Positions 13,264 through 21,564 of a DNA stretch of 43,555 nucleotides are shown piece after piece (the stretch's first letter is position 1; the number at the start of each line of letters is the position of its first letter). The stretch spans positions 1 through 43,555 of the forward strand of contig CAMCQR010000009.1 in the NCBI GenBank assembly GCA_945877115.1. The letters run 5' to 3'. The position numbers and the translations under genes are program-made. Below the pieces are notes generated by a model, which saw only the letters and a program-made list of their open reading frames with translations, was not told the origin of the DNA and made no database searches. This stretch comes from Synechococcus sp. UW140 (lineage in GTDB: Bacteria; Cyanobacteriota; Cyanobacteriia; PCC-6307; Cyanobiaceae).

Positions 13264-13298
13264 GATAGTTGATTCTTAGCAGCGCTGCTGCCGATTTC

Positions 13299-13682
13299 AT
13301 GGCCCTACTTGATGACCTGATCAACGGTGTGGTGAATTCCGTCGCCGGCGACAAGGCTCAGGCCCTCAACGATTTCTTCAAAACCAACGGCGGCCTCTCC
13401 GGGCTGGCCCAGAAGTTTCAGAACGGCGGGGCCAGCGAAATGTTCGCCAGCTGGGTGGGTACGGGCGAGAACTCCCTGATCAGCCCCGATCAAATTGACA
13501 AGATTCTGGGCAGTGGTCCGATCCACGAACTGGCAACCAAGCTTGGTGTCGATACCAAACAAGCCTCGGATTACATCGCCACCAAACTTCCCGAACTGGT
13601 TGATCGTATTACCCCTGACGCCAAGATTGAACCCGATGCGGCTGCGAAGCCCCTGCCCGCCGCCCAACCTCCCATTGTCTGA
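13299..13682 (+). CDS. YidB/DUF937-family protein
   Basis: A small 127-residue protein of the YidB family; molecular function is unknown. Landmarks are MALLDDLINGVVNSVAGDKA, an NGGLSGLAQKFQNGG segment and the C-terminal repeat-like helices SPDQIDKILG and IHELATKLGVDTKQASDYIATKLPELVD. The start at 13299 gives the family N-terminus. It lies 89 bases after eno with its own candidate -10 box and ends at a strong terminator, so it may be transcribed alone. Confidence 0.88.
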   Translation: MALLDDLINGVVNSVAGDKAQALNDFFKTNGGLSGLAQKFQNGGASEMFASWVGTGENSLISPDQIDKILGSGPIHELATKLGVDTKQASDYIATKLPELVDRITPDAKIEPDAAAKPLPAAQPPIV

Positions 13683-13725
13683 CAATTTAGGCATTCAACA
13701 CACACCCCAAGGTGATTGACCTTTG

Positions 13726-13754
13726 AAGACCTGTCCTTTGGACGGGTCTTTTTT
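13726..13754 (+). terminator. Intrinsic terminator after yidB
   Basis: AAGACCTGTC-CTTTG-GACGGGTCTT forms a 10-bp stem with one G-T wobble, and the T run begins in the stem and continues to 13754. A textbook Rho-independent terminator. Confidence 0.9.
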
Positions 13755-13834: not shown

Positions 13835-15094
13835 ATGTCTCAAACCCTTGACATCGGCTCCCTGATCGAGGCAGGTCAATGGCCGCTGTCAGAAATGCTG
13901 CTGCGCCAAGCTCTCTTGCAAGATCCCAGCTGTGCTTGGGCGGAGGATGCCCTGGGGCGAATCGCCGCCAATCTGGGTTTGTTTGAGGCGGCTGTCGAGC
14001 ACTTTCGCAGGGCCATGGCCCTGGCTCCAGACTGGCCCGATCCTGCCTTCCACCTCGAAGCGGCCCTGAGCTTCGCAAGTTTTCTGGGTGAGGCCAATGG
14101 GGGCGATCCATCCGGATCAGGGCCGCCACGATGGCTCTTGATCAAGGCTTGGGGCTTTGGCTTTTGGTCCGATGTGTTCCACGTGCTCTCCCAGCTCCTG
14201 CTGGCCGAAATCAGCCAGCGTCAACCGATCATTCACTGGGGCTGGAACAGCCTTTATCGCCGTAGCGATTCCTTCAATGCCTTCGAGCATTTTTTTCAGC
14301 CCCTTCCCCAATCCAGCCTTGAAGATCTAGAGAATCTTAAATATCTCTCCGACGAGGAAATCTGGCCACCCAAATGGAACCGCCAAAATCTAATGGAAGG
14401 GGGCGTCAACCAGGCCTTTGGTCCCTACTCACGAATGGCTGGCCTCTATCTACTGAATCGACCAGAACCTTTGGTTGTCAGTGATTTCTTTACGGCCATT
14501 CTCGACCTCCTGCCCTGGATTCCAACTAACCACCCCCTACGGGGCTCCAGCGTTGAGGGGGCCTACCGAGCCCTGGCCCAGAAATACCTGAAACCCCGGG
14601 ACGAGATCTTGGAAACGAGCGAAAAATTCCTCAAAAATAATCTCGAACCCGAAAACTTTCTGGCCGTGCATCTACGGGGTCTTGATAAAATAACTGAACA
14701 CAATCAGATCGAACAAGAACATCTTATCTGCCAACAACATATCGACCACCACCTAGACCTATTTCCTAATGAACCCATCTTTCTGATGACCGACGATATC
14801 AAGCTCCTCGATCAATTCAAAGGCCGTTATGGCCAACGCATCATTTCGAATGCTTGTCAACGGGCTTCCGGTCCCCTTGGACTTCACAAGTTGCCGGATC
14901 AAGATGGAGTCCGCCTGGGCCAAGAAGTGATGGTGGACACCTATACGGCGACCCGGGCGCGGGCCTTCATCGGCCATGGCCAATCCAACACCTCCGTCGC
15001 CGTGCTGTACCTCAAGGCCTGGCCGTCTGGAAGCGTCACCCTGGTGGGACCCAACATGATGGATAACTACAACCTTGCCCTTCACCATGGCTAA
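13835..15094 (+). CDS. TPR protein with a fucosyltransferase-like domain
   Basis: A 419-residue protein in two parts. Residues 1-75 are TPR-like helices (SLIEAGQWPLSEMLLRQALL, ALGRIAANLGLFEAAVEHF, RRAMALAPDWP). The rest resembles the GT-B fold of O-fucosyl/alpha-1,6-fucosyltransferases (NodZ, FUT8): AVHLRGLDK near residue 285 recalls the HxRxxDK nucleotide-sugar motif, followed by FLMTDDIKLLDQF and RARAFIGHGQSNTSVAVLYL. The acceptor is unknown; a protein, glycan or surface polymer is possible. The second half is AT-richer than the neighbours. GAGGAG lies about 12 bases before the ATG. It stands alone between a terminator and a convergent kinase gene. Confidence 0.7.
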   Translation: MSQTLDIGSLIEAGQWPLSEMLLRQALLQDPSCAWAEDALGRIAANLGLFEAAVEHFRRAMALAPDWPDPAFHLEAALSFASFLGEANGGDPSGSGPPRWLLIKAWGFGFWSDVFHVLSQLLLAEISQRQPIIHWGWNSLYRRSDSFNAFEHFFQPLPQSSLEDLENLKYLSDEEIWPPKWNRQNLMEGGVNQAFGPYSRMAGLYLLNRPEPLVVSDFFTAILDLLPWIPTNHPLRGSSVEGAYRALAQKYLKPRDEILETSEKFLKNNLEPENFLAVHLRGLDKITEHNQIEQEHLICQQHIDHHLDLFPNEPIFLMTDDIKLLDQFKGRYGQRIISNACQRASGPLGLHKLPDQDGVRLGQEVMVDTYTATRARAFIGHGQSNTSVAVLYLKAWPSGSVTLVGPNMMDNYNLALHHG

Positions 15095-20010: not shown

Positions 20011-21564
20011 CTAGAATTCCTCACTCGCCACGCTACGGGCAATACGTCCAAGATCAGCCCGTTCATCTGTTGTAATGCGATGGGGTACACCACTAATAAT
20101 ACGCTCAAAATTAGAGAATGAATCCTTAATTTCGGGTCCATTACCCGTAATCACGAATTCGCGAATACCTTTATCGTGCCAAGAGCCCCGCATTTTAAAC
20201 ACATTAAGAGCACGGGCCATCTCGCCACGTATTTCAACATACTGAAGCAGCAAAATAGTGTCGGTAATGGTGGATATATGAGAGTCGGTGATGGAATGGC
20301 TACCCATAAACTCCTCAGACGTATTCGTAAAGAACCCGGCAATCTCCTCCTGCTTTGCATAGCCGGTGACCCCAATCACAAATTGCCTGAAGGCGTTATG
20401 ACTAACGCCACGGGCCAAGGCTGAAAGTGAATCAATTGCCATGCGAGATGGCTTAAATTCACTGATTTCTGTTTTAATAATTTGTAAATGATCTTCCAAG
20501 CCAGTGGATTCGGGATAGGCACAGATAATTTTCAGTAGGCCATCCTGCTCCATTTGTTCAAAGTCGATGCCCCAGCTCGTGGCATTGCGGAGTAGTTGAG
20601 CTCTTGATTCTTCATAGGCAAATAAGATCGCTCTTTCTTTACTGCCACAGGCATCTTCTATAAATTTACTCACCAAAAGCGTCTTGCCCGTTCCCGTTGC
20701 ACCTGTGGCCAAAATGATCGAATCCTTAAAGAAGCCACCGCCACACATCTCATCGAGACGTGGCACCCCCGAACTCAGCCGCACATTGGATGATCTCTGG
20801 GTTAGTCGCATGGCTCCCAACGGGAAAATATTCACACCATGGGCTCCCATGGTGAAAGGAAATTCACCTTTCATATGGGTCGTGCCACGAAGCTTGAGAA
20901 TTTCAACCGTACGACGACGACGTTCTCCCTCCAAAACATTACGGAGAATAACCACATTATCACTAACAAATTCTTCCACCCCATATCGGGCAATTGGACC
21001 ATATTCGTCAATGCGTTCCGTGGTCATCAACGTGGTTACACCAATCTCCTTGAGGCGGGCAATCAGCCGAAATATCTCCCGCCGTACGACGGAGACGGCA
21101 TCGTATTGCTGAAAAACAGCCGTAATCGAATCGATGGCCACCCGACGGGCTTTATACTTGCGAATGGCATAATTAATCCGTTCGATAAGACCTGAAAGAT
21201 CAAAACTACCTGCCACATCCTGTCCCTCTGGATCTGGCGAGGCATCAAGGATAAAAAGCTTATCCTGCTCAACCATTTCACGAAAATTCCATCCAAAGCT
21301 GGCCGCGTTACGTAAAATATCGAGGGGAGACTCTTCAAAGGTAACAAATATACCGGGCTCATTAAAATCCCGTATGCCGTTATGTAGGAAATTCAGCGAA
21401 AATACAGTTTTACCAGTTCCGGAAGTTCCACTGATTAAAGTTGAGCGTCCAATGGGTAAACCTCCATGTAAAATGTCATCGAAACCCTCCATCCCCGTCG
21501 GGAGCTTTTGCACCTGCATCAGGGCAGTGCCAGGGGTGTTAGTGGATAGACTGGGGTCCTGCAT
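20011..21564 (-). CDS. kaiC: Circadian clock ATPase/autokinase KaiC
   Basis: Core oscillator protein: a hexamer whose phosphorylation cycles daily. The 517 residues contain two RecA-like domains. CI has Walker A GTSGTGKT (46-53) and catalytic E77/E78; CII has GATGTGKT (288-295) and E318/E319. The phosphosites S431 and T432, plus T426, lie in SITDSHISTITD at the same numbers as in S. elongatus. The C-terminal A-loop and tail bound by KaiA follow (SGVPHRITTDERADLG). The last residues differ from other KaiC tails. It begins 58 bases after kaiB. It is AT-rich for this window: 26 G/C in the 60 bases at 20041-20100. Confidence 0.99.
   Translation of the reverse strand: MQDPSLSTNTPGTALMQVQKLPTGMEGFDDILHGGLPIGRSTLISGTSGTGKTVFSLNFLHNGIRDFNEPGIFVTFEESPLDILRNAASFGWNFREMVEQDKLFILDASPDPEGQDVAGSFDLSGLIERINYAIRKYKARRVAIDSITAVFQQYDAVSVVRREIFRLIARLKEIGVTTLMTTERIDEYGPIARYGVEEFVSDNVVILRNVLEGERRRRTVEILKLRGTTHMKGEFPFTMGAHGVNIFPLGAMRLTQRSSNVRLSSGVPRLDEMCGGGFFKDSIILATGATGTGKTLLVSKFIEDACGSKERAILFAYEESRAQLLRNATSWGIDFEQMEQDGLLKIICAYPESTGLEDHLQIIKTEISEFKPSRMAIDSLSALARGVSHNAFRQFVIGVTGYAKQEEIAGFFTNTSEEFMGSHSITDSHISTITDTILLLQYVEIRGEMARALNVFKMRGSWHDKGIREFVITGNGPEIKDSFSNFERIISGVPHRITTDERADLGRIARSVASEEF

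Follow-up and report, generated by a model that had tools for sequence, protein, structure and literature searches.

The window (the whole stretch of 43,555 nucleotides of Synechococcus sp. UW140 DNA that was analysed) carries a gene joining TPR-type helices to a GT23-like catalytic domain, and its product is very probably a GDP-fucose-type transferase. The gene (13835–15094, + strand) was recognized from its ORF, its relatives and the predicted model of its product. It starts with ATG, encodes 419 aa and contains zero internal stops. About two TPR units (aa 7–87) are followed by one catalytic domain (aa 96–417; 14120–15085, + strand). The ORF and the HxRxxDK-like motif noticed in the initial annotation were confirmed, the motif reading H-L-R-G-L-D-K at aa 279–285. 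A chance ORF was ruled out: 15 loci elsewhere encode the domain and, at 11 of these, the match starts in the TPR part too (at residue 2–19).

The gene stands isolated, as had been remarked beforehand. Upstream, on the same strand, lie a gene encoding enolase and a small ORF (13269–13682), the latter followed by a terminator-like hairpin (13725–13751, + strand); downstream, a UbiB-like gene converges on the TPR-GT23-like gene. The hairpin is a weak terminator candidate, since the hairpin count across the stretch is at chance level. The AT-richer second half was also found, the GC content going from 0.62 (13850–14149) to 0.45 (14600–14899). Among the neighbours, some of which were named, no polysaccharide gene was seen adjoining the window gene. 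The circadian-clock KaiC gene (20011–21564, 1030 bits) is located about 5 kb from it, in keeping with a cyanobacterial host.

The structure was predicted using AlphaFold2 on an alignment of 16 rows (the window protein and 15 relatives). The model (pLDDT 88.9, pTM 0.90) has a GT-B variant fold and its best structural matches were NodZ (3siw, Z 21.4, rmsd 3.4, 261 aligned residues) and FUT8 (6vlg, Z 21.4), followed by AtFUT1 (Z 20.0), POFUT2 (Z 18.8) and POFUT1 (Z 16.8). The same families were top-ranked by Foldseek (FUT8, 2.1e-9; NodZ, 4.3e-9). A profile of the catalytic domain (A2), built from the 16 family members, found NodZ (7.5e-14) and FUT8 (4.3e-8) in the PDB. The glycosyltransferase class proposed initially was thus borne out, and neither of the two outcomes named against it, a fold other than GT-B or the lack of a match to any glycosyltransferase family, was found. 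With Pfam, the sole glycosyltransferase row of the window protein was O-FucT (PF10250; E 1.2e-4, 22.2 bits), below the curated cut-off of 31.5; no NodZ or FUT8 row was obtained and no curated glycosyltransferase cut-off was reached. Among nine relatives, two were above the NodZ cut-off of 28.3 bits (P0008, 45.1; P0016, 29.1). Because the curated NodZ/FUT8 Pfam score was not reached, the window protein was filed as GT23-related and not as a GT23 member. Membership of GT41 was rejected, as the window protein gave no Glyco_transf_41 row even at E values as high as 10.

NodZ (GT23) is the rhizobial alpha-1,6-fucosyltransferase of Nod factors and acts on a chito-oligosaccharide. Besides the fold, it has the GFG, HW/DW, NAF..FFEP, HVR and TD motifs in common with the window protein; it differs in that the two NodZ sequences examined have no TPR part and in that the identity to the window domain is 20%. 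FUT8 (GT23), the eukaryotic core fucosyltransferase, shares the fold, the HxR..DK loop, the TD motif and equivalents of Asp453 and Ser469, but it carries a coiled coil and an SH3 domain (part of PMC7014118) where the window protein has TPR helices. POFUT1 and POFUT2 (GT65/GT68; Pfam O-FucT), which have one donor in common with FUT8 according to the same part of PMC7014118, belong to the same fold class; their structural scores are lower and the O-FucT score of the window protein is below the cut-off.

Residues were mapped through the alignment of the profile with FUT8, counting from FUT8 Arg365, and their roles were taken from part of PMC7033129. As described there, the guanosine is contacted in FUT8 by the side chains of His363 and Asp453 and by the backbone of Thr408, the pyrophosphate is contacted by Arg365, Lys369 and Ser469, and the catalytic base is Glu373. 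The FUT8 sequence HVRRTDK aligned with the HvRGsDK of the family. FUT8 H363, R365, K369, T408, D453 and S469 corresponded to H279, R281, K285, T319, D368 and S384, the Arg and Lys of the suspected donor motif thus falling on Arg365 and Lys369, with D368 as the guanosine Asp. These residues are found in three stretches of the + strand: HLRGLDKITE (aa 279–288, 14669–14698), TDD (aa 319–321, 14789–14797) and aa 368–387 (14936–14995). A fourth one, KAWGFGFW (aa 104–111, 14144–14167, + strand), is invariant in the 16 rows and lies over the NodZ GFGDC and FUT8 GCGYG stretches. H279, G282, E288, D320 and D368 were conserved in 16/16 rows, R281, D284, K285, T319 and S384 in 15/16, and D321 in 8/16. 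E288 aligns one position before the FUT8 base Glu373, on a loop which is mobile in FUT8. R281 was also aligned on the HVR of NodZ; at the D368 position, both NodZ sequences examined have Glu. The second Arg of the FUT8 HVRR is Gly282 in the window protein and His in both NodZ sequences, so this position does not define the group. In the verrucomicrobial member (L043:5929–7155), the HxRGxDK loop has lost its Arg, Asp and Lys and much of the rest is kept; judging from its sequence, it is perhaps an inactive or altered copy.

Tandem TPR helix hairpins were found in the window protein by phmmer, in the model and by superposition (aa 1–87; 13835–14095, + strand). The human OGT TPR domain was matched by phmmer at 1.8e-12 summed over repeats (best single stretch 0.0018), and the N-terminal helices of the predicted model superpose on the OGT TPR (1w3b) with Z 13.8 and rmsd 1.7 over 83 aligned residues. 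Every Pfam TPR model was under its cut-off for this protein (TPR_2, 22.3 vs 27 bits). The TPR helices announced in the initial annotation are therefore present and superposable on those of OGT, but they are short; with about two units only, an OGT-like superhelix was rejected. The TPR part is retained across phyla in the relatives and is presumed to be a docking site for the acceptor protein.

The genome scan gave 16 loci, 15 of which cover the catalytic domain with 34–45% identity to the window protein. The remaining one (L046), which matches TPR residues 10–66 only, was left out of the counts. According to record titles, the relatives are scattered over Proteobacteria, Planctomycetota and Verrucomicrobiota, in addition to this cyanobacterium, and the TPR-GT23-like family across these phyla is new here. 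Both Planctomycetota members (L032:5809–7230 and L033:1184–2539) have a SEC-C motif N-terminal to the TPR part. In the family of the host (201 genomes including the host), 16 genomes had a match at 1e-3. A common gene of this family was rejected because the 15 other matching genomes match the TPR part only, all within residues 5–90. In the phylum (386 genomes including the host), 15 genomes matched the profile at 1e-5, the host with 457 bits and the others with at most 88. From their scores, the latter would encode distant GT23-like proteins and there would be no second family member in the 386-genome sample. A phage-borne gene was rejected as well: tblastn against phage genomes gave no match at 1e-5, and the scan of viral contigs with profile A2 gave 33 pattern matches, none of which was confirmed. 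On plasmids, the P0008 query returned 29 records; among the matches listed, 25 were annotated NodZ and there was no family member.

The UbiB-side site was examined in 14 of the 31 genomes of the genus. In 11 of these genomes (L088–L098), no match to the gene was found in up to 1.5 kb beyond UbiB; enolase was present at seven of these sites, a small ORF of DUF937 type without enolase at one, and neither at three. In two close species (G536 and G539), UbiB is 95–96% identical to that of the host. G536 has a remnant (L086, G536:C14, 3206–3587) in which TPR residues 10–78 and the C-terminal 58 residues are left; alignment to the host copy shows two gaps, of 806 and 67 bases. The site of G539 was read on the contig holding the UbiB end and is empty (L137, G539:C20, 4311–4436): about 125 bases separate the matches to the small ORF and to UbiB and contain no match to the gene. 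The tree places the window gene together with the two Planctomycetota rows (96/93); the end branch of the gene is 1.07 vs a median of 0.34 and is under the tool's own long-branch limit. Given the empty site and the remnant in near relatives and the Planctomycetota grouping, these sequences indicate that the gene was most likely acquired by horizontal transfer and is easily lost. Its supposed accessory nature is supported: in 12 congeners readable there, the site lacks a match, and a thirteenth retains a decayed remnant.

The host Gmd scored 575 bits (cut-off 415) and the host Fcl shares 58% identity with E. coli Fcl. Since gmd and fcl are both present, the GDP-fucose route is likely in the host, which is probably able to make this donor. 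Among the 15 carriers, gmd was above the cut-off in 10 and was found at E <= 1e-60 in 13, vs 6/14 control genomes above the cut-off. This distribution fits with fucose and is non-specific for it. Near one of the relatives' genes (L036), a Gmd-like gene scored 337 bits, below the Gmd equivalog cut-off of 415, so the donor may there be another GDP-6-deoxyhexose.

A GT41 domain was found fused to the TPR-GT23-like domain at 4 of the 15 relatives' loci (L035, L036, L038 and L042), in Aquabacterium, Ideonella and Rubrivivax. These carriers belong to one family, Sphaerotilaceae (order Burkholderiales). The fusion proteins are 1018–1069 aa long and contain, in this order, TPR, the GT41 catalytic domain, TPR and the C-terminal fucosyltransferase-like domain. 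The fusions were established by Pfam for two of the four (GT41, 279 and 286 bits) and by tblastn for all four. One of them (P0002, 1067 aa), folded as a single sequence, gave a pLDDT of 37.5 and was left out of the evidence. At L041, the GT41 and fucosyltransferase-like halves are encoded by separate genes, side by side on the same strand. A 990-aa protein encoded beside the Rubrivivax fusion (L042:7004–9976) has a GT4 domain (Pfam) and an N-terminus that, by eye, resembles a degenerate version of the fucosyltransferase-like domain.

Of the 11 non-fused loci, four (L031, L032, L041 and L044) had GT41 in the flank vs 0.33 expected (P about 1e-4, under a post hoc chance model in which the number of matches is an upper limit for the genes). 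GT41 was absent from the examined flank, sometimes a short one, at 7/15 loci. Anywhere in the genome, GT41 was found in the 15 carriers and in the host vs 2/14 controls (Caulobacter and Synechococcus elongatus), the controls not being taxon-matched. The host GT41 gene (789 aa, L058:5306–7675, 102 bits) is encoded away from the window gene. The ORFs preceding it have N-termini resembling those of prepilins; the score of one (21.2 bits) equals the N_methyl cut-off, and a second one, without Pfam match, was named by eye. The prepilin-like ORFs and GT41 (L058:3293–7675, G000:C16) form a possible pilin-glycosylation operon.

ALTTAQ repeats (PF20080) were detected in 7/15 carriers, i.e. five Sphaerotilaceae and two Rhodospirillales, vs 1/14 controls (not taxon-matched). 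In three loci, a Thr-rich ALTTAQ gene is located within 2.3 kb of the GT41-linked genes: it is the divergent neighbour, 0.2–0.3 kb off, at L036 (fused) and L041 (split), and it ends 2.2 kb downstream of the fusion at L038. Of these ORFs, that of L038 was the one scanned with Pfam. In G570 (L042), ALTTAQ repeats occur about 10 kb away on the same contig. The L035 contig begins at the fusion gene, so the neighbour on the ALTTAQ side falls outside the sequence. Pfam identified a GT4-methyltransferase, a GDP-mannose dehydratase-family gene and an outer-membrane efflux gene near L036, and an ABC transporter near L035; in Aquabacterium, the surroundings of the ALTTAQ-type genes include outer-membrane efflux and ABC exporter genes. 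From its sequence and setting, the ALTTAQ gene product may be a glycosylated, exported, Thr-rich repeat protein. No ALTTAQ match was found in the host genome, nor in 8 of the 15 carriers, and the clearest candidate acceptor is consequently missing in the host. The Rhodospirillales genomes G572 (L044) and G573 (L045) have 31 and 26 GT41 matches and 103 and 96 ALTTAQ matches, respectively. No paper on ALTTAQ was found in the literature search.

The best explanation, to which we give an even chance, is that the protein is a fucosyltransferase of the cytoplasm which, together with a GT41 enzyme, either elongates the O-glycans of exported proteins or attaches such glycans to them. This explanation is built on the ORF, its layout, homology, the predicted fold, residue conservation, GT41 fusion and linkage, and gmd and fcl; from these we infer fucose as the sugar, the TPR dock, an O-glycan or protein as acceptor and cooperation with GT41 in the host. 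The enzyme would be soluble (no signal sequence was seen by eye). GDP-fucose would be bound via H279, D368, R281, K285 and S384, and a mobile-loop acid (candidate E288) would deprotonate the acceptor hydroxyl. By analogy with FUT8, fucosyl transfer would be metal-independent and inverting. The N-terminal TPR unit would dock the protein acceptor, most likely an exported protein on which a GT41 enzyme starts an O-glycan at Ser/Thr, and the pair would build a short O-glycan in the cytoplasm, pre-export. In the host, this partner would be the GT41 encoded elsewhere, beside the prepilin-like ORFs. The acceptor itself is rather likely to be a protein or a protein-linked glycan; the selection of such an acceptor had been suggested initially and is a reasonable proposal, to which the GT41 fusions lend weight. 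The fusion in relatives suggests that both enzymes decorate the same proteins in turn, and priming by GT41 followed by fucosylation has at best an even chance. The most specific version, in which GT41 primes Ser/Thr of large, exported, ALTTAQ-type repeat proteins, the TPR-GT23-like enzyme adds fucose to that sugar and the cyanobacterium holds a transferred stand-alone second half of this two-step cytoplasmic system, is tentative and rather unlikely as a whole.

Fucose could instead be placed straight onto Ser/Thr, as by POFUT1/2 or SPINDLY, without a GT41-made sugar. The predicted fold is also near POFUT2 and POFUT1, O-FucT is the only Pfam glycosyltransferase row of the window protein and SPINDLY likewise has a TPR dock; however, the sugar-acting NodZ and FUT8 are better matches in structure and in sequence, and a GT41 fusion is more readily understood as two steps on one glycan. 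We consider such direct O-fucosylation unlikely. The same low probability is given to a NodZ-like fucosyltransferase of an oligosaccharide, a lipid-linked glycan or an exopolysaccharide, in which the TPR merely positions the enzyme in a complex. Retention of the TPR part across phyla, the protein-modifying GT41 family fused or nearby and the lack of polysaccharide genes among the named neighbours of the window gene argue against it, although NodZ is among the nearest solved relatives, GT4-type domains (Pfam) lie beside the L036 and L042 fusions, similar GT4-type ORFs were seen by eye in L035 and L041, and the GDP-mannose dehydratase-family gene is near L036.

Lastly, the transferred gene may be on its way out of the host and have little present function. 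The internally deleted remnant in one near relative, the empty site in another and the end branch of 1.07 (below the tool's long-branch limit) agree with this, but the host copy is a full ORF with intact donor-site residues and the host has gmd and fcl, which makes this reading quite improbable.

In SPINDLY and OGT (GT41), TPR are joined to a glycosyltransferase as in the window protein; SPINDLY is described as an O-fucosyltransferase. Their catalytic family is another one, GT41 being the fusion partner in relatives of the window protein. In Caulobacter FlmG, flagellin is bound by the TPR N-terminus, without which the GT-B C-terminus does not glycosylate it (part of PMC7591256). FlmG and the window protein have in common a TPR N-terminus and a GT-B C-terminus, with cytoplasmic protein glycosylation in FlmG and a presumed TPR role in the window protein. 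FlmG, in contrast, acts with pseudaminic acid on flagellins and the GT domain of the window protein is GT23-like. FlmG is thereby a precedent for TPR-guided cytoplasmic glycosylation.

Fucosyltransferases of the NodZ/FUT8 fold are associated with the sugars of Nod factors and N-glycans. If the preferred reading is true, a TPR-bearing bacterial branch fused to GT41 would bring OGT-type and fucosyltransferase functions together in a single enzyme, proteins could be glycosylated in two steps in E. coli with a soluble tool, and ALTTAQ repeats would be a testable acceptor for bacterial GT41 enzymes. The two-step version would correspond, in bacteria, to core fucosylation, with an O-linked sugar as its target. 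The surprise lies in the architecture of the relatives, with the GT41 fusion and ALTTAQ genes nearby. No paper on a GT41-GT23 fusion was found among the titles listed, most subscription journals being outside the search, and the GT41 and GT23 literature gave, by title, no paper on bacterial protein glycosylation among the matches listed.

The host also encodes a second, distant NodZ-like protein of 366 aa without TPR (L002 / L059:6736–7836, G000:C78), with no Pfam match at E 0.01 and 52 bits to the domain profile; its gene is near radical-SAM-like and methyltransferase-like ORFs (by eye). The neighbour of a gammaproteobacterial member (L037:3–1382) encodes a TPR-sulfotransferase, another TPR-guided modifier.
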